DNA of 64,000 bases, from the NCBI RefSeq assembly GCF_012939955.1, contig NZ_SPMY01000019.1, positions 3,782 to 67,781 on the forward strand, given 5' to 3'. Source of the DNA: Candidatus Accumulibacter phosphatis (lineage in GTDB: Bacteria; Pseudomonadota; Gammaproteobacteria; Burkholderiales; Rhodocyclaceae). Both the position numbers and the translations under genes were made by a program. How positions within the stretch are numbered: the stretch's first letter is position 1; every line of letters starts with the position of its first letter. The notes below the pieces were generated by a model. It was not told where the DNA came from and ran no database searches. It saw nothing but the letters and a program-made list of their open reading frames with translations. This document shows, piece after piece, positions 55,318 to 64,000 of this stretch.

Positions 55318-57047
55318 GTGGACAGGTTCTTCAGCGGACTACGCATCGGCGAAAAAAATCGGCCTCGGCTTCGTCGTCATCGGCCTCCTTTTTTGTCGGC
55401 GTCGCCTGGCACTACCATCAGACGCTGGCTACTGTGCTCGGCGACTACCGGCAACTACAGGTTTTTGAAGTGCGAAAATCGCTGGCGCTGGAGATCGAGA
55501 TCGAACTGGCGGCCGTACGTGACGCCGAGAAAGGCTTCCTCATCGAGCACCGGGAAGCCTTGGTGGAAGAAACCGACAAGCACTTGCAGGCGCTGAACGA
55601 CAAGGTGGCGGCGCTGGCCGCGGTCGACCCGGACTCCCGACAAACCGCAGCGTCCCTGCAGGGCCTGCTGAGCAGCTATCAGGAAGATTTCCACGCCGTC
55701 GCCGACGCCTGGCGGATCATGGGACTGGACGAGGACTCCGGACTACAGGGCACCTTCCGCAAAAAGGTGCATCACCTGCAGGAGCTTGCGGCCAATTACA
55801 ACGTCGACCGCCTGTACACCCTGCTACTGCAGATTCGCCGTAGCGAGAAGGATCTGGCCTTGCGGCAGGACCCTGCCTACCGCGAACAGGTTCGCCGCCT
55901 GATCGCCGAGTTTCGCCAGCTGCTGGAGACCGCCGAACGTCAGGACGCGGTCAGCCAGAAACTGCTGGCCGAGCTCACGGTATATGCGACGAGCTTCGAA
56001 CCCTACGCCGAAAGCGCCCTCAAGGGCGGCAACGTCAGCGGCGGCAAGGGGCCGTTCCGCGACGCAGCGCACCGCATCGAAGCCATCCTGAATGCCTATC
56101 ACGTGCCCAAGCTTGAAACCAGCGTCCTGCAGCTCCGACGACGCGAGAAGGACTTCCTGCTGCGCGGCGATGAGTCTTACCCGCCGATGGTGGTCGAAAT
56201 CGCCGACGCCATTCGCGCGCAGATCACCGCTTCGCTGATCGCCGAGGCCGACAAGTCGCTGCTGCTCGGGCTACTGCAAGATTATCAAGAGGGCTTTCTG
56301 GCCCTGGTCGCGCAAAGGGCCAGCATCGCTATCCTGAGCCGCGAGATGAGTGCTGCCGCCGATCTTGTCGCGCCGCTGGTAAAGCAGAACGCGGACCAGG
56401 CCAATCAGATGATGGCCCGCCGCGTCGTGGAAATTACCGAATCGTCGGAGGCCAGCGCGCGGCTCAGTCTGATCGTCGTCGGCTGCGCCATCGCTCTCGG
56501 CGCACTCTTGGCGGTAGTGATCACCCGGCGCGTCGTGCGCCGCATTCAGTTGATGGCCGGACTGCTCGACGACCTGGCCTACGGCAGTCCCAGCCACCGC
56601 GTCCCGACGGTGAAGGGTGGACGCGACGAAATAAACGCCATGGGGGAATCACTGAACTCACTGGTCGAGCACCGGGCGACCTTCATGCGCTGGTGGAAGG
56701 AAGCAATGGCCGAAGTCAACGCGCGACGCGAGTTGGCTGGCGCGAACAGCGACGAGGAAAAGGACGAAGCGATGCACGATCTACGCAGCGCCGGCATCGC
56801 CAAACTACAGCTACTCAACGCCATTCGCAGCCGCCTGCTGCAGCATGGCGAGCGTGTTCTCGACATTTCTCAAGGTCTCCAGGCGGCCCCTGGCAGCGTC
56901 ACCGAAGAGGATGCGAAAGCCCTCGAACATGCCGCCAAGGGCATGGCGACCTTGTTCGAAGTGCTCGCCACCGAGGACACACCCAGCACACTCAGCACAT
57001 CCAGCAGTCGAACAGCGGCAAGTGCCAACGGCGGCGATCCCGCCTAG
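55318..57047 (+). CDS. HAMP-domain membrane sensor without recognisable output domain, two frameshifts
   Basis: GTG 55318 follows AAGGAGG by 6 bases. The N-terminus MDRFFSGLRIGEK continues as IGLGFVVIGLLFVGVAWHYH if one A is removed from A7 (55352-55358) and one T from T6 (55389-55394), joining the long frame at LGDYRQLQVFEVRKSLALEI. The protein is then about 575 residues: one N-terminal helix, a long helical periplasmic sensor with two related halves (LLLQIRRSEKDLALRQDPAY; VLQLRRREKDFLLRGDESYP), a second helix (LIVVGCAIALGALLAVVITR) and a HAMP domain. About 150 helical residues follow with no kinase, MCP or cyclase motif. The repeated 'RR.EKDf..R.d' helix resembles HBM-type chemoreceptor sensors. 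Confidence 0.8.
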
Positions 57048-57098: not shown

Positions 57099-57452
57099 TC
57101 ACTCGCTGCAAGGCTCGGTCATAAATCCAGGCGGAAGGACTTCGCCACCTAGCGCCGGGAAGCGGGCACCCTCCTCCGCGTGCCGCTTCCGGTGAAGCGG
57201 CGGCGCGCCAGCCAGAAAGGCCTGGATAGCCTGCGCAAGCCCACTTCTCTGTAGTGCCAAAGCGGCGTCGACCTGCCTGCCCGCGGCGGCCCTGTCGCCG
57301 CCGACCAGCAAACACGCGGCTTGCGCGAGGCGGCGAGCGGCCGCAAGCTCGGCTTGCCGCAGCAGCGAAAAATCACAGCCACAACGGGAACAGGTGGCGG
57401 CCTCAGTCAGGCGCGCACGGCACGCCGGACAGCGCTCGAGATGTTCAGGCAT
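57099..57452 (-). CDS. Zinc-ribbon protein of the accessory Hsp70 operon
   Basis: This 117-residue protein begins MPEHLERCPACRARLTEAAT followed by CSRCGCDF, a Cys4 ribbon (CPAC...CSRC). A helical region follows (LRQAELAAARRLAQAACLLV, GRQVDAALALQRSGLAQAIQ) that looks like one or two TPR-like hairpins. The start overlaps the Hsp70 stop by 8 bases, so it is the last member of the operon. It might bind clients or a partner; no function is assigned. Confidence 0.75.
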   Translation of the reverse strand: MPEHLERCPACRARLTEAATCSRCGCDFSLLRQAELAAARRLAQAACLLVGGDRAAAGRQVDAALALQRSGLAQAIQAFLAGAPPLHRKRHAEEGARFPALGGEVLPPGFMTEPCSE

Positions 57453-59205
57453 CGAGGTAATAGAGGAGATCGGCCAGCGCATCGGTAGGCGTTTTCAGCT
57501 CGTCCGCGGATCCGCCAAGGCCATCCTTGACCGCCTCGATGGCGTTCACCAGGTCCTCGGCATCTTCGGCGGCCGCCGTGGTCAGCAGGCGCTCGGCTTT
57601 TTCGATTAGCGCCGTTGCTTCAATGCGCAGTCGCCGACCATCGGCAGTGCCCGCAGCATCGGCCCCGCCGGGGCGCTCCGCCGCCTCCTGCTCACCAAAC
57701 AGCTCGTCGATCCGTTCGCGTGCGGCCAGCAACTTGTCGCCAGAGAAGGCGCTGATGGCCTTGTCGATGGTAATCGAATGCACCAGGCCGCTTTCCTTCT
57801 CGCGCGAAGTCACCTGCAGGATGCCGTTCACATCCAGCGAGAAGGTGGTAATCAGCGGATTACCGGCGGGGGCGTCGCGTAGCCCCTCGATCATGAAGCG
57901 CCCGATCGCGATATTGTTCAGCGCATCGGGATCTTCGCCCTGGTAGACGTTGATCTCGGCCCTGGTCTGGCCATCGAAAAGGGTGCCGAAGCCCTCGCTC
58001 CGCGAGACGGGAATCGGCGTGTTCTTGCGGATCAAGGGCACGAAGCAGTAGGGATACATTTCACCGTTGAAAGGCCCCATGGCACTGGTGCCGAAGGTGT
58101 AAGGAGTGACGTCGACGAGCACCGTCGGTGCCTGCGCACCAGCAATCACCGCCGCCTGAATGGCGGCGCCCATGGCGACGCAGAGATCGGGATCAACCTC
58201 TGCGCGAGGCTGCAGACCCAGCTCCTCTTCCAGTCGGCGCTGCACCAGTGGCGTGCGAGTAGCGCCGCCGACGAGCAGGATCTCGTTGATCTCGCTGACC
58301 GTCAATCCGGCACCACTGAGCGCCACATGCACCGCGGCGAGGGTCTCGGCGACAAAAGGCTCGATCATGTCCTCGTAGTCGGAGCGCGAAATCTCGAGCG
58401 ACAAGTGAACCGGCACGCCGTCCTTCTCGGACAGATACTCCTCGCTCAAGCTGGCATACGGCTGCTCCGACAAGGTGATCTTGGCCGTTTCGGCGGCGCG
58501 CTGCAGGCGAGCCATGGCCACCGCGTTGTCACGAACGTCGATCGTGTTCTTCGTGCGCAGGTGCTCGACCGCAAAGCTGACGAGCTTCTCATCGAAATCG
58601 TCGCCACCCAGGTGATTGTTGCCGTGACTGGCGAGCACCTCGACGACATCGCTTTCCAGATTCACCACCGAGACGTCGAAAGTGCCGCCGCCGAGGTCAT
58701 AGACCAGCGCCTTGCGCGCACCACTGTGACAGCTTTCGTAGGCCAGCGCGGCGGCGGTCGGCTCGTTGATGATGCGCATCACCTCCAGGCCGGCAATCTC
58801 GCCCGCCTCGCGCGTCGCCTGGCGCTGCGCATCGGAGAAATACGCGGGCACCGTAATCACCGCCCTGGTGAGCGTTTCGCCGGTATGGGCCTCGGCAATC
58901 TCGCGCAAGCGGCGCAGGATCATCGCCGAGATTTCCTGCGCACTGTAGTCCTTGCCAGCCATTTGCACGGCGTCCAGTTCGCCCATACGGCGCTTGATTG
59001 AACGTACGCTGCGCTCGGGATGCAAGACGTATTGGTTGCGTGCGGCTTCGCCAACCAGCAGAGTCCCGTCATCGGCGACACCGACCACCGAAGGGAGAAT
59101 GCGGACCCCCGGAGCCACCTCGATGACCTCGACGCGCCCGTCGCGGACGATGGCCACCTCGGAGTTGGTGGTCCCCAGATCAATGCCGATAATGGTTTCT
59201 GTCAT
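57445..59205 (-). CDS. Hsp70-family chaperone (accessory DnaK/HscC-like)
   Basis: This 586-residue Hsp70 has a complete ATPase domain: phosphate-1 loop IIGIDLGTTNSEVAIV, phosphate-2 loop KALVYDLGGGTFDVSVV and adenosine motif EILLVGGATRTPLVQRRL. The substrate-binding domain is present (FGTLFDGQTRAEINVYQGED, TFSLDVNGILQVTSREKESG). The lid is shorter than in DnaK (about 638 residues) and ends LADLLYYLDA without the EEVD-like or Gly-rich tail. It overlaps the GrpE-like gene by 4 bases and the zinc-ribbon gene by 8. The context with dedicated cochaperones indicates a specialised system. Confidence 0.94.
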   Translation of the reverse strand: MTETIIGIDLGTTNSEVAIVRDGRVEVIEVAPGVRILPSVVGVADDGTLLVGEAARNQYVLHPERSVRSIKRRMGELDAVQMAGKDYSAQEISAMILRRLREIAEAHTGETLTRAVITVPAYFSDAQRQATREAGEIAGLEVMRIINEPTAAALAYESCHSGARKALVYDLGGGTFDVSVVNLESDVVEVLASHGNNHLGGDDFDEKLVSFAVEHLRTKNTIDVRDNAVAMARLQRAAETAKITLSEQPYASLSEEYLSEKDGVPVHLSLEISRSDYEDMIEPFVAETLAAVHVALSGAGLTVSEINEILLVGGATRTPLVQRRLEEELGLQPRAEVDPDLCVAMGAAIQAAVIAGAQAPTVLVDVTPYTFGTSAMGPFNGEMYPYCFVPLIRKNTPIPVSRSEGFGTLFDGQTRAEINVYQGEDPDALNNIAIGRFMIEGLRDAPAGNPLITTFSLDVNGILQVTSREKESGLVHSITIDKAISAFSGDKLLAARERIDELFGEQEAAERPGGADAAGTADGRRLRIEATALIEKAERLLTTAAAEDAEDLVNAIEAVKDGLGGSADELKTPTDALADLLYYLDA

Positions 59206-59960
59206 GTTCTGTTCGCTTTCTTGCTGACAATGACTTCGGCGATGCGCAGCAGCTCGCCGTCGTGGAAAAATCCGCGTTGAACTTCACGCACAACGCTACC
59301 GTCGGGGATCGCGGCCGACCCCGTAGCGGCTTCGAGACCGACAACGCGCATCCGTTGCGGATCAAGCGTTTCGCCGACGACCCGGATGGGCCGTACGCGA
59401 TGGCCGGCAAGCAGCTCGTCGAGGCGTTGCAGGGTCAGGCGCTGCCCCTCGGCCAGGCTGGCGGCAAGACGCGTCGGACCAGGAAGCAGGCGCTCGAGAA
59501 ACGATGACGGCGGTCGCCGCGCGGCGTCCACGCCACTCTGCAGGCGGTCGCGCAGGTCGATCAAGGCGAGCAGGAACTGCCGTGTGGTCTGCCCCTGGAT
59601 CGAGGCCGCCTGCTCGCGCGCACGCTCGAGTTCCTCTTGCAGCCGCTCGCTATGCGCGCGCAGATCGTTGCCGAAGCAGCGCAACTCGTCTAGCGTATTC
59701 TTGAACTGACGCGATTGCAGACGCAGTTCGTTCTTGAGCACCGCCATTTCGGCGAGTAGAGTGCTCAGGTCGACCGCTGGCGCCGTGCTCTCCAAGTCAT
59801 CACCGTCCCACGCATCGCCCGGCTCAGGCAGCTGCGCGGCGTCCTCCAGGTAGGCACGAAACTCCTCGACCAGACGCTCCACGCGCTCTCTTTCCTGGCC
59901 AGCGAGGGCCGTTGGCGCTAGCGTCTGTAGGTCAGTCAGCACTGGCGTCATTGCCGTCAT
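59202..59960 (-). CDS. GrpE-like nucleotide exchange factor
   Basis: This protein of about 252 residues has a long central coiled coil (KNELRLQSRQFKNTLDELRC, LRAHSERLQEELERAREQAA) and a C-terminal beta-wing resembling GrpE (RGFFHDGELLRIAEVIVSKK). GrpE releases ADP from Hsp70. This one is longer than typical GrpE (about 200) and has an acidic N-terminal extension. It overlaps both neighbours by 4 bases. It is likely the exchange factor specific to the adjacent Hsp70. Confidence 0.85.
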   Translation of the reverse strand: MTAMTPVLTDLQTLAPTALAGQERERVERLVEEFRAYLEDAAQLPEPGDAWDGDDLESTAPAVDLSTLLAEMAVLKNELRLQSRQFKNTLDELRCFGNDLRAHSERLQEELERAREQAASIQGQTTRQFLLALIDLRDRLQSGVDAARRPPSSFLERLLPGPTRLAASLAEGQRLTLQRLDELLAGHRVRPIRVVGETLDPQRMRVVGLEAATGSAAIPDGSVVREVQRGFFHDGELLRIAEVIVSKKANRT

Positions 59961-60247
59961 TTCGCCCCCAGCACGCGCAGCACACGCTGCTCACTCGGGA
60001 GAGCAGGCGCGAAGTCGCTGCTGAGCGCGTGCAGCACGTCGTCTACGCTTGGCGATGAACGGTCGAAGAGCTGGTGTGCCAGGCGTCGGCGATGGTCGGA
60101 AATCGCCTCGTAGGCTGCGCGTACGCTCTCGAAGCGCTGGCGGTCGCGCTCGGGAGGCGATTCACGAATCGCCGCCAGGTACGCAGCTCGAATCGTCTCG
60201 TCGTTGGCACCCATCTCGACGCCAAGGATGCGGTAGGGATCAATCAT
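59957..60247 (-). CDS. Minimal J-domain-like protein lacking the HPD triad
   Basis: This 96-residue protein starts MIDPYRILGVEMGANDETIR and AAYLAAIRESPPERD, followed by FESVRAAYEAISDHRRRLAH. Helices I-III of a J domain are recognisable. The HPD loop that normally activates Hsp70 ATPase is replaced by S-P-P-E-R. There is no Gly/Phe or zinc region. The ATG at 60247 overlaps the TPR gene by 8 bases and is preferred to upstream in-frame starts that would lie inside that gene. It probably adapts or docks on the cognate Hsp70 by an altered mode. Confidence 0.85.
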   Translation of the reverse strand: MIDPYRILGVEMGANDETIRAAYLAAIRESPPERDRQRFESVRAAYEAISDHRRRLAHQLFDRSSPSVDDVLHALSSDFAPALPSEQRVLRVLGAK

Positions 60248-62801
60248 CGAACAGGTCTCTCTGCCGGTCATCGTGAACCGGCGGTTTCGCTTTCGGGGCA
60301 ACGGGGGAAGGTGGCGCGAGAGGAGGCTGCGGCTGCGGCTGCGGCTGCGGGTCAGGCTGAACACTCCCGGCGACAGGCCGAATTTCTTCGGCGACGCTCT
60401 CGATCAACAAGCGCGCCAGTTTCTTGCGATTCCCACCCGCGGCACGCTCCATTTTACTAAACTCACTAGCCGGGAAAACCGCGCGGGCCATGTTGATGGT
60501 TGCTTCTTCGCCGGCCATCTCGAACAGCATTTCCAGGGCTGCGCGTGGATTGGTGAACAACGTTTTTTCCACCTTGGCGAAGGCTTCGCCCAACTCGTCC
60601 AGATCTCCGAAATCGTCGAAATCGTCTGCATCCTCGTCGTCGAACTTCGCCGGCGGCGGTGACAGCAACTCGCGAATGCGTAGCGCGGTGCGTTGATCGC
60701 CTTCTTCGCGCGCCTTGTCCAGGGCTTCCTCGAGCGCCATGCCTTCGTCTAAGGATATCAACAAGTAGGCCGCGGAACCGTGGCGGGCGAAAACGTGGAA
60801 ATAAACGAAGATCGGCCGCTCGGGCCAGCGCTTCCGGCCGGCGTCAGCGTAGGCCTGCAGCAAGGAGCGCTCGTTCCGGCGCAGCAGTGCTTCGCAAATC
60901 GAAATCCTTTCGGATTCGCTGAAGTCATGACGCGCAGCACCCCGCAAGGGTGCGCGCAACTCGTCCAGAACGGCGGCCAAAGTTCGCGGCCCGACTTCAC
61001 ACAGCGCGTTGATGGCATGCACCACGGCCAGCACTTCGCGCGCCGTCGTCGCCGCCGACAGTTTGATACCGGCACGACGCAGCGTAGGTGTCAGCTGAGC
61101 ACCGAGGCGAGCGCCTTCGAGCAAGACGTGGAAAGCCGCCAGGAGATTGCCGCCGAATTCGGCCACCGCTTCGTGCAGCAGCCCGCTCGCCTGCGCATCG
61201 GTCGCACTCAGGCCGCGCAGGAGCTTGACGACACTTTTCTCGCTCGCCGCAGTCAGCCACTGCTCTGCCAGGTCGAGCTCCTTCCCCGCGGCCTCCGGTC
61301 GTCGCGCGCGAATCTGTTTGCGTGCGTGCGAGAGGTGCGCCTGAGCAATCAAGGCGCGCACCCGGGAATTGATCGGGTCGAGCGCCAGTACGCGCTTCGC
61401 CAGAGCCACCGCTTTCTTGAACGCGCTGCCGGCGAGAGCCGTTTCGACCGCTTCGAGGAGCACCGCCGGGTCCGTGGCAAAGTGCGCCAGCGCCTGGTCG
61501 ACGGCGGTACGCGCCGCCCGCAAGTCGCCAGCCTGCCGATGGCTCTGGATCAGCTTCAGCTGCGTGCCGACGTCAGCCGGGTCAAGTGCCAGACTACGCT
61601 CCAGCCAGTCACGGCACTGCGCAGACATACCCTTGCCGCGGCCATCGTCGGCAAACAATTCAACCAGATGACGCAGGATCAGCGCCGCCTGCAGCGGCGC
61701 CTTCTCCGGCGCGGACAGCAATCCCGCAGCACGTAACCAGTGCGCCTTGCTCAGTGGCAGCTCGCCGTGCAGTTCCGCGGTCAGCGCCGCCAGGCACTCG
61801 CGCTCCTCTTCGGCCAGCGGGCCGAAAGTACTCTCGTAGTCGGGCACTCGTCTGTCCGCGAACGGCAACAGGCGGCGGCAGAGGGTCGCTGCGCTGGCCG
61901 GCACGCCGCCCTGGCGGTGCAGCAACAGCTCGAGCACCCTGCCTGGCGACGGTGCGGAATCGAGCGTCGCCATGGTCGCCACATTGAGCAGCAGGGAACG
62001 CCGGCTTTGCGGACAGCCCTTCAGGTCCAGCAGCAACTGCCGCCCCTGGTCATCGAGAGCCGGCAGCGCGGCAAGCCAGCGACTACCCGTAAGTAGCGCC
62101 GCACGAACGACCGCCGCCAGGCTTTCGAAAGGGCCTCCCGCAGCGACGCGGGCGCTCAGTTCGGCGGCCTGCGTCGGCTCCTCGGTAAGCAACAGCAGGG
62201 ATTTCAGGAGATAGCGGAGATCGCGGTATGGCGAGCGAAAGGGTATCGCGCGCAGCTGCTCCTCAAGCGCCAGTTGGTCGCCACGAGCGCAGGCGGCGAT
62301 GGCCGCCAGGGCGAGCGCACGATGACGGGATAGTGGACTGTCGGCGGCGAGTTGCGCCAGCGCTTCGGCGGGCGCAGTCAAGACCACCGCTGCCAGCCGT
62401 GTTTCAAGCTCGGCGATAGCCGACGGCGAGAGATCAGCGCTGGTGACCAGCAAGCGCAGCGCAGCAGCATGCTCGCCTGCGCGCAGCAACCACTCGACGT
62501 AGGGGCCTTCTGCCAGCGGCCGATCGCACAGGCTGGTGCGATTCCGCCATACCACCAGCGCTTCGGAGAGCATGCCCTTGGCGGCCAGCTCGCCAGCGCG
62601 GCCAGCATAGCTGGCGGCCAGACCGTCGACCCACTCGCTCCTGCGCTCCTGCTTCAGCAAGGTCTTGTATAGCTCTATCGCCTGGCGATACTGGCCCGCC
62701 GCAAGCGTCTTCGCGGCCTGAGCCTCCGGCGTCAGCGGCTCAGCGAGTACCGCTTGACGGACGCGCGAGGCAGGAGTTCTCTTCTTGCGGGACACAGACA
62801 T
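60240..62801 (-). CDS. Large TPR-like protein heading the accessory Hsp70 operon
   Basis: This protein of about 853 residues is almost wholly helical with TPR-type repeats (LAAGQYRQAIELYKTLLKQE, GRAGELAAKGMLSEALVVWR, FKKAVALAKRVLALDPINSR, CRDWLERSLALDPADVGTQL). The C-terminal 150 residues are acidic (FDDEDADDFDDFGDLDELGE) and then Pro/Gln-rich (QPDPQPQPQPQPP). No signal peptide is seen, so it is cytoplasmic. ATG 62801 has a poor ribosome-binding site. It may collect client proteins for the Hsp70 encoded three genes later. Confidence 0.85.
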   Translation of the reverse strand: MSVSRKKRTPASRVRQAVLAEPLTPEAQAAKTLAAGQYRQAIELYKTLLKQERRSEWVDGLAASYAGRAGELAAKGMLSEALVVWRNRTSLCDRPLAEGPYVEWLLRAGEHAAALRLLVTSADLSPSAIAELETRLAAVVLTAPAEALAQLAADSPLSRHRALALAAIAACARGDQLALEEQLRAIPFRSPYRDLRYLLKSLLLLTEEPTQAAELSARVAAGGPFESLAAVVRAALLTGSRWLAALPALDDQGRQLLLDLKGCPQSRRSLLLNVATMATLDSAPSPGRVLELLLHRQGGVPASAATLCRRLLPFADRRVPDYESTFGPLAEEERECLAALTAELHGELPLSKAHWLRAAGLLSAPEKAPLQAALILRHLVELFADDGRGKGMSAQCRDWLERSLALDPADVGTQLKLIQSHRQAGDLRAARTAVDQALAHFATDPAVLLEAVETALAGSAFKKAVALAKRVLALDPINSRVRALIAQAHLSHARKQIRARRPEAAGKELDLAEQWLTAASEKSVVKLLRGLSATDAQASGLLHEAVAEFGGNLLAAFHVLLEGARLGAQLTPTLRRAGIKLSAATTAREVLAVVHAINALCEVGPRTLAAVLDELRAPLRGAARHDFSESERISICEALLRRNERSLLQAYADAGRKRWPERPIFVYFHVFARHGSAAYLLISLDEGMALEEALDKAREEGDQRTALRIRELLSPPPAKFDDEDADDFDDFGDLDELGEAFAKVEKTLFTNPRAALEMLFEMAGEEATINMARAVFPASEFSKMERAAGGNRKKLARLLIESVAEEIRPVAGSVQPDPQPQPQPQPPLAPPSPVAPKAKPPVHDDRQRDLFDD

Positions 62802-62856: not shown

Positions 62857-63600
62857 TTAGGCCCCCAGGCGCGCGCGCAGATCCACCCACTGCCGGTCGA
62901 ACAGGCCCTCAATGGACTTGAAGTTGGCCTTGTAAGCCATTTTCCGGCTGTCACGGATCCAGTAACCCAGGTACAGATAAGGAAGCTTGTTGGCCGCACA
63001 CTGGCTGATTTGCCAGACGATGTTGTAAGTGCCAAAACTGGCAGGGGAAAGATCCGGATCGTAGAAGGTGTAGACCGACGAAAGGCCGTCGTTGAGCACG
63101 TCCAGGATACTCACCATGCGCAGGACGCCGTTTTCGGTGAATTCGATGAGGCGAGTGTCAACGCGACTCTGCAGCAGGAAATGCGCGTACTGGTCGTGGC
63201 TGTCCTCGTCCATGCCGCCACCGGCGTGCCGCGCCGCCTGGTAACGCAGGTAAAGCTGATAGTGCTGCTCATTGAAGCACAGTGGCAGTTCGCGCGCCTG
63301 CAGGCGCGCGTGCCTGTGCACACTGCGGCGCTGGCTGCGGTTGGGCTGGAACAGATCAACCGGAATGCGTACCGGGATGCAGGCCTGACAGTGGTCGCAC
63401 TTCGGCCGGTAGGTGAACAGGCCGCTACGTCGAAAACCGCTACGCACGAGTTCGCCGTAAATCTCGGTGCTGATCAGATGGCTTGGCGCGGCGACCTGCG
63501 AACGCGCCCGCTCACCCGCCAGGTAGCTGCAGGTGTAAGGGGCCGTCGAGTAGAACTGCAGCAGGGAGAACGGCAGTTCCGAGTCATTGAGGCGCGCCAT
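62857..63600 (-). CDS. bpt: Aspartate/glutamate leucyltransferase
   Basis: This protein of about 247 residues transfers leucine from Leu-tRNA to proteins with N-terminal Asp or Glu, feeding the bacterial N-degron pathway (ClpS/ClpAP). Signature segments are [40 protein letters not shown] with paired Cys, [20 protein letters not shown] and [20 protein letters not shown]. The ATG at 63600 is chosen because the upstream in-frame extension is not conserved in type and runs into aat. It follows aat by only a few bases. Confidence 0.95.
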
Positions 63601-63604
63601 GCAA

Positions 63605-64000
63605 CTAATTCCAGGGTTGGTTGGCGCCGTCGGCCGGCCATCGACCCGGCTGCCACGGCACGGCGACCAGCGCGCGCAAACGGGCCATGAAATCGGCACG
63701 CGGGATTTCGCGCGCGCCCAGAGACGCCAGGTGCGCGGTTTTCATCTGGCAATCTATCAGGCCGTATCCCTCACCCTCAAGGAAACGCGCGAGGTGTGCG
63801 GCGGCAATCTTGGAAGCATCGGTGGCCAGCGCGAACATCGATTCTCCGTAGAACATGCGCCCGATAGCCATTCCGTAGAGACCGCCCACCAGCTGGCCAT
63901 CGATCCACGTCTCGACCGAGTGCGCGAAACCAAGTTGCGCCAGCTGCCAGTAGGCGTGCTGCATTTCGCGGGAAATCCAGGTGCCGTCCTGACCGTCGCG
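63605..64000 (-). CDS. aat: Leucyl/phenylalanyl-tRNA-protein transferase, N-terminus beyond window
   Basis: The C-terminal 131 residues are present: [80 protein letters not shown]. Aat adds Leu or Phe to proteins starting with Arg or Lys and targets them for ClpAP degradation. The reading frame is open to base 64000, so the start is outside the window. It pairs with bpt four bases downstream. Confidence 0.95.

Follow-up and report, generated by a model that had tools for sequence, protein, structure and literature searches.

The relevant part of a 2021 review recognises three types of prokaryotic Hsp70 (PMC8215388). As to their J-domain partners, changing the HPD motif from His to Gln or from Asp to Asn abolishes stimulation in every system tested, according to the passages on the motif in two reviews (PMC8215388, PMC13254874), and the sections of the 2026 review concerned describe HPE as apparently the sole tolerated replacement, call the standing of other J proteins without HPD enigmatic, and report a designed J analogue without HPD that stimulated Hsc70 (PMC13254874). 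Here we analysed a stretch of 64,000 nucleotides from Candidatus Accumulibacter phosphatis (contig NZ_SPMY01000019.1, positions 3,782 to 67,781; hereafter the window), in which five adjoining genes encode a tetratricopeptide repeat (TPR) protein, a J-domain protein, a GrpE homologue, an Hsp70 and a zinc-ribbon protein (Table 1). Judging from their sequences, these genes probably constitute a self-contained Hsp70 machine insulated from DnaK. More tentatively, we suggest that they may represent a fourth kind of Hsp70 machine in bacteria, ancient enough to span Pseudomonadota, metagenome-assembled genomes (MAGs) of Desulfobulbaceae type and Cyanobacteriota, in which the J protein would drive the Hsp70 without the HPD histidine, by means of a PPE or PPD motif and a co-diverged contact surface, and the TPR solenoid, not the J protein, would select the clients. 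No paper describing the five-gene set was found in the open-access literature, subscription papers lying outside the search.

The initial annotation of the window, made from its letters alone, had described five open reading frames (ORFs) on the minus strand with overlaps of 8, 4, 4 and 8 bases, all of which are as it gave them, and had read them as an accessory Hsp70 machine, dedicated and equipped with cofactors of its own. This reading is well supported, since the Hsp70s form a clade of their own, the five genes are conserved as a module, and the genome has housekeeping DnaK/GrpE/DnaJ and HscA/HscB sets besides. That annotation would have given way had this Hsp70 been the sole DnaK, or had the TPR and zinc-ribbon genes parted from it in relatives; the genome encodes a further DnaK as well as HscA (grpE-dnaK-dnaJ lie on a second contig and hscB-hscA on a third), and both genes stay with the Hsp70. 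Three observations go beyond it: HPD is replaced by PPE in the J protein, the Hsp70 falls outside DnaK, HscA and HscC, and the set reaches Cyanobacteriota. Its proposal that the products are made in fixed ratio does not follow, as the overlaps suggest translational coupling only. Pfam assigned the J protein to PF00226 (34.7 bits, cut-off 27.8), the GrpE homologue to PF01025 (63.4 bits, cut-off 25.8) and the Hsp70 to PF00012 (489.8 bits, above the cut-off). The host genome contains two GrpE matches altogether and six J-domain matches, five besides the J protein of the operon.

Phylogenetic analysis by maximum likelihood (unrooted trees of 38, 27 and 29 proteins) placed the Hsp70s of this system in a single clade, with support of 100/100 in the 38-protein tree and of 100/98, Nostoc included, in the other two. 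The clade lies apart from HscA, HscC and the DnaK proteins of Escherichia coli, the host genome, Listeria, Fusobacterium, Rhodococcus, Phenylobacterium, Nostoc (C057) and a haloarchaeon, and HscC occupies its own branch (100/100 in the 27- and 29-protein trees). The Hsp70 of the window (P0004) failed the equivalog tests for DnaK (533.8 against a cut-off of 822.55 for TIGR02350; 542.5 against 648 in NCBIfam) and for HscA (408.8 against 708.55 in NCBIfam). By family match and retained ATPase residues the protein is an Hsp70, one that in our trees groups with none of DnaK, HscA and HscC, and it seems to be a fourth bacterial Hsp70 type. One genome with the five-gene set (G004) also encodes a very divergent Hsp70-like protein of 507 amino acids (L057; Hsp70_G004_C125 in the trees), about 32% identical to P0004, whose very long branch is present in the 38-protein tree and was excluded from the smaller ones. 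In the host genome itself, two long ORFs near one another on contig 23 (L005 and L006) have partial Hsp70 matches.

Residues were counted in 57 loci (above 700 bits, with a GIDLGTT match) plus P0004, giving 58 sequences, and in 17 more (15 from a phylum sample, Nostoc and one Acaryochloris; a split copy in L202 excluded), giving 75. K70, P143, R151, E171, D194, T199, D201, D393 and P419 are invariant (75/75), and D8 and T11 are each kept in 74/75. The part of the 2021 review dealing with the interface lists R167, Q378, L391 and P419 as contacts of HPD, and E206 and D477 as further J contacts (PMC8215388). R167 is retained in 72/75, Q378 in 74/75 and L391 in 58/58, and E206 and D477 are mostly replaced. 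All 75 sequences have the lobe I deletion (DnaK residues 76-101) that HscC has, all have lost the D211 loop, and loop L1,2 carries an insertion of about eight residues. The GrpE-signature loop is present in 75/75; of its 11 positions, E. coli HscC lacks six and HscA seven. The structure model of P0004 has a mean predicted local distance difference test score (pLDDT) of 84.

The J protein deviates at its signature motif. With the register set by gapless alignment with DnaJ and DjlC, we compared 67 sequences (66 loci and the window's P0002), then 15 from the phylum sample and three from cyanobacteria, 85 in total, and HPD was found in none of them. The 67 have PPE (50), PPD (14), PAE (2) or SPE (1) at this position; the phylum loci have PPE (9), PPD (2), SPD (2) or SPE (2), and the three cyanobacterial proteins all have PAH. 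An acidic residue thus occupies the Asp position in 82/82 non-cyanobacterial sequences, a divergent copy in G135 (PPS, by eye) not being counted. After the motif comes a loop six residues shorter than that of DnaJ, a feature shared with the HPE-bearing DjlB and DjlC. Among the 67, DnaJ K26 is replaced by Leu in 61 and K51 by Arg in 60, and R27 is retained in six. As the alignments read, J protein and Hsp70 have diverged together at their contact: in the Hsp70 the D211 loop is gone, and in the J protein K26 and, for the most part, R27. Exchange with DnaJ and DnaK is therefore not expected.

A J-like protein of this kind might instead be a pseudo-J (type IV) regulator like mitochondrial Pam16, which would bind the Hsp70 or recruit another J protein without stimulating the ATPase itself. 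The uniform lack of HPD and the PAH of the cyanobacterial members speak for such a role, the five other J-domain matches of the host genome could provide the stimulation, and J-domain proteins without HPD are treated as presumably non-functional in the pertinent section of the 2026 review (PMC13254874). We nevertheless consider a pseudo-J unlikely, though not lightly dismissed, because the protein is the sole J-family gene in the mapped loci, the Hsp70 keeps the HPD contacts R167, Q378, L391 and P419 listed in that part of the 2021 review (PMC8215388), and the acid is conserved in all the non-cyanobacterial sequences counted. The same section of the 2026 review also describes DjlB and DjlC, with their HPE, as working with HscC, alongside the designed analogue mentioned above (PMC13254874).

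The GrpE homologue is matched in the Hsp70 by the retained GrpE-signature loop. G122 of E. coli GrpE matters for DnaK binding. In the GrpE homologues (63 loci above 150 bits and the window's P0003, 64 in total) this position is Gly throughout, and the position of E. coli His154 is Met in 64/64; their profile matches GrpE entries in the PDB. The TPR protein is predicted to be a single long continuous helical solenoid (mean pLDDT 82), and a Foldseek search returned generic TPR-type solenoids among the 50 matches listed (query TM-scores 0.13-0.29). In the zinc-ribbon protein, which matched no Pfam family, the two CxxC pairs are invariant in 10/10 genomes of the genus; CxxC-CxxC was scored in 70/71 of a wider set, and the 71st sequence, clipped by our script, carries it too. 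The fifth gene of Nostoc is a zinc ribbon fused to TPR. Comparing the window with two relatives, the ratio of nonsynonymous to synonymous substitution rates (dN/dS) is 0.11-0.38 in the other four genes.

In the machine that we propose, the TPR solenoid would gather one class of clients or tether the machine to a site; the J protein, which is small and lacks a client-binding domain, would couple the TPR-client complex to the Hsp70, which would trap the client on ATP hydrolysis and be reset by GrpE, and the zinc-ribbon protein might be a second adaptor or keep the Hsp70 soluble. The role of client collector, which the initial annotation had assigned to the TPR protein, is thus one that we infer. 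Conversely, the TPR and zinc-ribbon proteins could be clients of the Hsp70, or form a structure that it assembles. In favour of this, the large TPR gene heads the operon and diverges quickly (25-33% identity to seven distant relatives), yet it is present in the mapped loci. We regard this alternative as rather improbable, since the TPR protein keeps the conserved stretches FRSP[YF]R[DE]LR and HL[SA]HARK and its Pfam matches are of TPR type only (the top one slightly below threshold, 24.7 against 25). Solenoid proteins, moreover, are typical adaptors.

The complete set was present in the same order in 10 of 61 genomes searched (the host, 27 others of its genus and 33 outside it), all of them members of the genus (10/28). 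A profile of the special GrpE scored above 397 bits in exactly these 10 genomes, all remaining matches reaching 19-31 bits. The overlaps of 8, 4, 4 and 8 bases recur within the genus except for one Hsp70 start that overlaps by 1 base and one ambiguous GrpE start. The TPR protein of the closest relative (G022) is 94% identical to that of the window; two of the 10 genomes have a broken TPR frame (G025) or a TPR gene running off the contig (G020). Several hosts of the set are granule formers; a link to storage granules was dropped, the set being found in only 10/28 genomes of the genus.

Outside the genus, the TPR profile gave, besides the host, seven strong matches and one at 7e-22 among 274 genomes of the class, and at 6 of these 8 loci the five-gene set is complete and in order; a further eight matches were weak (best E 3e-6 to 1e-3) and were left out. 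A scan of named genomes through the TPR gene yielded 69 loci, of which 55 have all five genes, in identical order in 55/55, a complete locus being one with a family match for each gene and including two with broken frames (L096 and L146) and one with a 4.4-kb insertion between GrpE and Hsp70 (L117, 12537-16962). Of the 14 incomplete loci, twelve run to within 125 bases of a contig end; the remaining two are L131 and L145, the latter a TPR fragment 632 bases from a contig end. These locus sets overlap, some contigs having entered through two collections (L080/L109, L081/L120 and L085/L134 among them, as well as the Accumulibacter loci). Searching 398 genomes of the phylum with the GrpE profile gave 15 strong matches (above 180 bits) besides the host, all outside its class, and 14 of the 15 loci have all five genes, likewise in this order (one TPR gene being cut by a contig end); the fifteenth begins inside the TPR gene. 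The count excludes 13 genomes at 60-74 bits and G489 (59.5 bits, partial); two of the 13 on inspection (L240 and L241) had the housekeeping grpE-dnaK-dnaJ with HPD. The hosts include Accumulibacter, Variovorax, Rubrivivax, Polaromonas, Rhodoferax, Competibacter, Contendobacter, Sedimenticola, Halomonas, Lamprocystis, Thiocystis, Thiodictyon, Thiosymbion, Thiomargarita, Methylomonas and Desulfobulbaceae, with Polaromonas glacialis, Variovorax paradoxus ISL-79 and Halomonas ventosae as cultured representatives; one MAG assigned to Phycisphaerales (L111) is like the Competibacter loci and may be misbinned. A Nostoc plasmid encodes a TPR protein of 846 amino acids, a J protein of 98, a GrpE of 255, an Hsp70 of 586 and the zinc-ribbon/TPR fusion of 150, and on three Acaryochloris plasmids there is sequence of TPR, J, GrpE and Hsp70, with several of the frames broken. 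The TPR protein of the window itself had no match in plasmid records at E 1e-3. Because order and near-identical overlaps recur in 10 genomes of the genus, the host included, and in distant relatives, the arrangement of the five genes is not due to chance. The module is conserved but patchy, scattered in both the class and the phylum samples, and it has perhaps moved horizontally.

Such a distribution would also suit a redundant general-stress Hsp70 acquired horizontally: within the genus the set is complete in barely more than a third of the genomes, with one remnant, and the cyanobacterial copies lie on plasmids. Sites resembling sigma-32 promoters (at least 10 of 12 matches) were found upstream of 3 of 66 TPR genes against 1.2 expected, a small surplus but no clear excess, and a heat-shock promoter was rejected on these numbers; sigma-70-like sites showed no clear excess either (3/66 against 2.4 expected). 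Given the own cofactors, the altered J interface and the lack of a clear promoter excess, we think that a redundant stress chaperone is improbable. The initial annotation had foreseen a machine for a special client or stress, of which the dedicated machine stands, and no link to a client or stress was found; neither the neighbours compared nor the upstream promoter scan gave a clue to the client.

Several observations weigh against the self-contained machine or its wider interpretation. Since the His-to-Gln and Asp-to-Asn changes of HPD abolish stimulation according to the two reviews, a J protein with PPE may not stimulate at all. The zinc-ribbon protein is weakly constrained (dN/dS 0.47-0.75), and a zinc gene was not found next to any of the three Acaryochloris copies. 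One genome of the genus (G017) has remnants only, of the TPR, Hsp70 and zinc genes; in G176 the TPR gene is on one contig and the Hsp70 and zinc genes on another, with J and GrpE beside neither; and G135 (L086/L200) has a short TPR gene, J and Hsp70 up to the contig end with no GrpE between. In Thiosymbion, a nematode ectosymbiont (L131), TPR, J and GrpE are followed by no Hsp70 in the 7.7 kb beyond GrpE (tblastn), possibly through decay of the locus. The fourth clade, finally, was delimited with few outgroups, including one cyanobacterial DnaK and no DnaK1/DnaK3 set, and with no wide survey of the Hsp70 paralogues of other phyla.

The nearest neighbours of the operon vary between lineages. 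In the window, bpt/ATE (arginyl/leucyl-tRNA-protein transferase by Pfam) and aat immediately precede the TPR gene on the minus strand (62857-63699 and 63605-64000). They adjoin the operon in only 4/10 genomes of the genus, which indicates position and not partnership, and an N-degron partnership was rejected. A plus-strand gene (55434-57047) for a 537-amino-acid protein, chemoreceptor-like by eye, converges with the operon and adjoins it in 3 of 11 loci of the genus. In six Competibacter-like loci (L111, L115, L116, L117, L119 and L120), a protein of about 900-990 amino acids, M16 peptidase-like by eye, is encoded on the strand of the TPR gene, 25-64 bases upstream of it. Clustering of the flanks, which were not scanned with Pfam, revealed no sixth partner recurrent across lineages. 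A conflict or defence system is very improbable: the GTPase-centred systems of Kaur et al. 2020 share similar ingredients, with HSP70, GrpE and DnaJ or TPR fusions in the part of that work concerned (PMC7159879), and the spread here is patchy too, but none of the five genes encodes a GTPase or FNIII protein, the nearest flanks, which were not scanned for defence genes, vary, and PADLOC returned nothing convincing (best E-value 0.0025).

Table 1. Features of the five-gene Hsp70 locus, in positions of the window
Feature	Position	Strand	Remarks
TPR alpha-solenoid protein, 853 aa (amino acids)	60240..62801	-	Acidic patch at about residues 717-735; disordered Pro/Gln-rich tail
J-domain protein (P0002), 96 aa	59957..60247	-	J domain and short tail, without client-binding domain; PF00226
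PPE codons, P0002 residues 31-33	60149..60157	-	Aligned with DnaJ HPD 33-35
GrpE homologue (P0003), 252 aa	59202..59960	-	PF01025
Hsp70 (P0004), 586 aa	57445..59205	-	PF00012; clade apart from DnaK, HscA and HscC
Loop aligned with the DnaK GrpE-signature loop, about residues 259-266 of P0004	58408..58431	-	
Zinc-ribbon protein, 117 aa	57099..57452	-	Ribbon, then a helical stretch looking TPR-like
Two zinc-ribbon CxxC pairs (C8, C11, C21, C24)	57381..57431	-	
TPR/J overlap, 8 bases	60240..60247	-	
J/GrpE overlap, 4 bases	59957..59960	-	
GrpE/Hsp70 overlap, 4 bases	59202..59205	-	
Hsp70/zinc-ribbon overlap, 8 bases	57445..57452	-	

A J protein without HPD is thus kept beside its own Hsp70 and GrpE across phylum-level distances, and the pair is a natural one for asking if the histidine is dispensable for J-domain function; a knock-out of the five-gene system looks practical in cultured hosts. 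Among described systems, the Shewanella AtcJ-AtcABC cold-adaptation operon likewise combines a short tailed J protein with partners encoded in the operon, but AtcJ works with DnaK through a functional J domain and the operon has no Hsp70 or GrpE of its own, as described in the relevant part of PMC6715715. The cyanobacterial DnaK1/DnaJ3 pilus system was rejected as an equivalent and differs from the five-gene set, because Nostoc punctiforme has a single GrpE, beside dnaK1, according to the passage concerned (PMC9239167). HscA-HscB resembles the present system in pairing a specialised Hsp70 with its own J protein, but it belongs to a separate clade, E. coli HscA is without the GrpE loop, and iron-sulphur genes lie beside HscA. 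In the mitochondrial PAM motor, Tim15 is the zinc-ribbon protein. This motor offers a parallel in working, with Hsp70, Pam18, Pam16, the GrpE homologue Mge1 and Tim15 in the account given in part of PMC9695410, and its Pam16, a J partner without HPD in the section concerned of PMC13254874, parallels the J protein here; homology to the motor is seen only at the level of shared families, and the zinc protein here matches none in Pfam. DnaK-DnaJ-GrpE covers the same three roles, and its ATPase residues and GrpE loop are retained, whereas the Hsp70 here is shorter (586 against 638 amino acids), with a lobe deletion and a separate clade, the J protein lacks the C-terminal domains of DnaJ and has PPE for HPD, and the TPR and zinc genes are additional. 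E. coli HscC shares the deletion of DnaK 76-101, the lost D211 loop and the L1,2 insertion, the J domain of its partners DjlB and DjlC likewise has the short loop and a motif other than HPD (HPE), and alpha-helical repeat genes lie near its locus too (Sel1 at HscC). In E. coli and, in the stretches examined, at five other HscC loci of the class, however, there is a J gene, but GrpE and TPR-family or zinc genes like those here are absent, and the system described here differs further in its separate Hsp70 clade, in keeping the GrpE loop that HscC lacks, and in a J protein with Pro in place of His.

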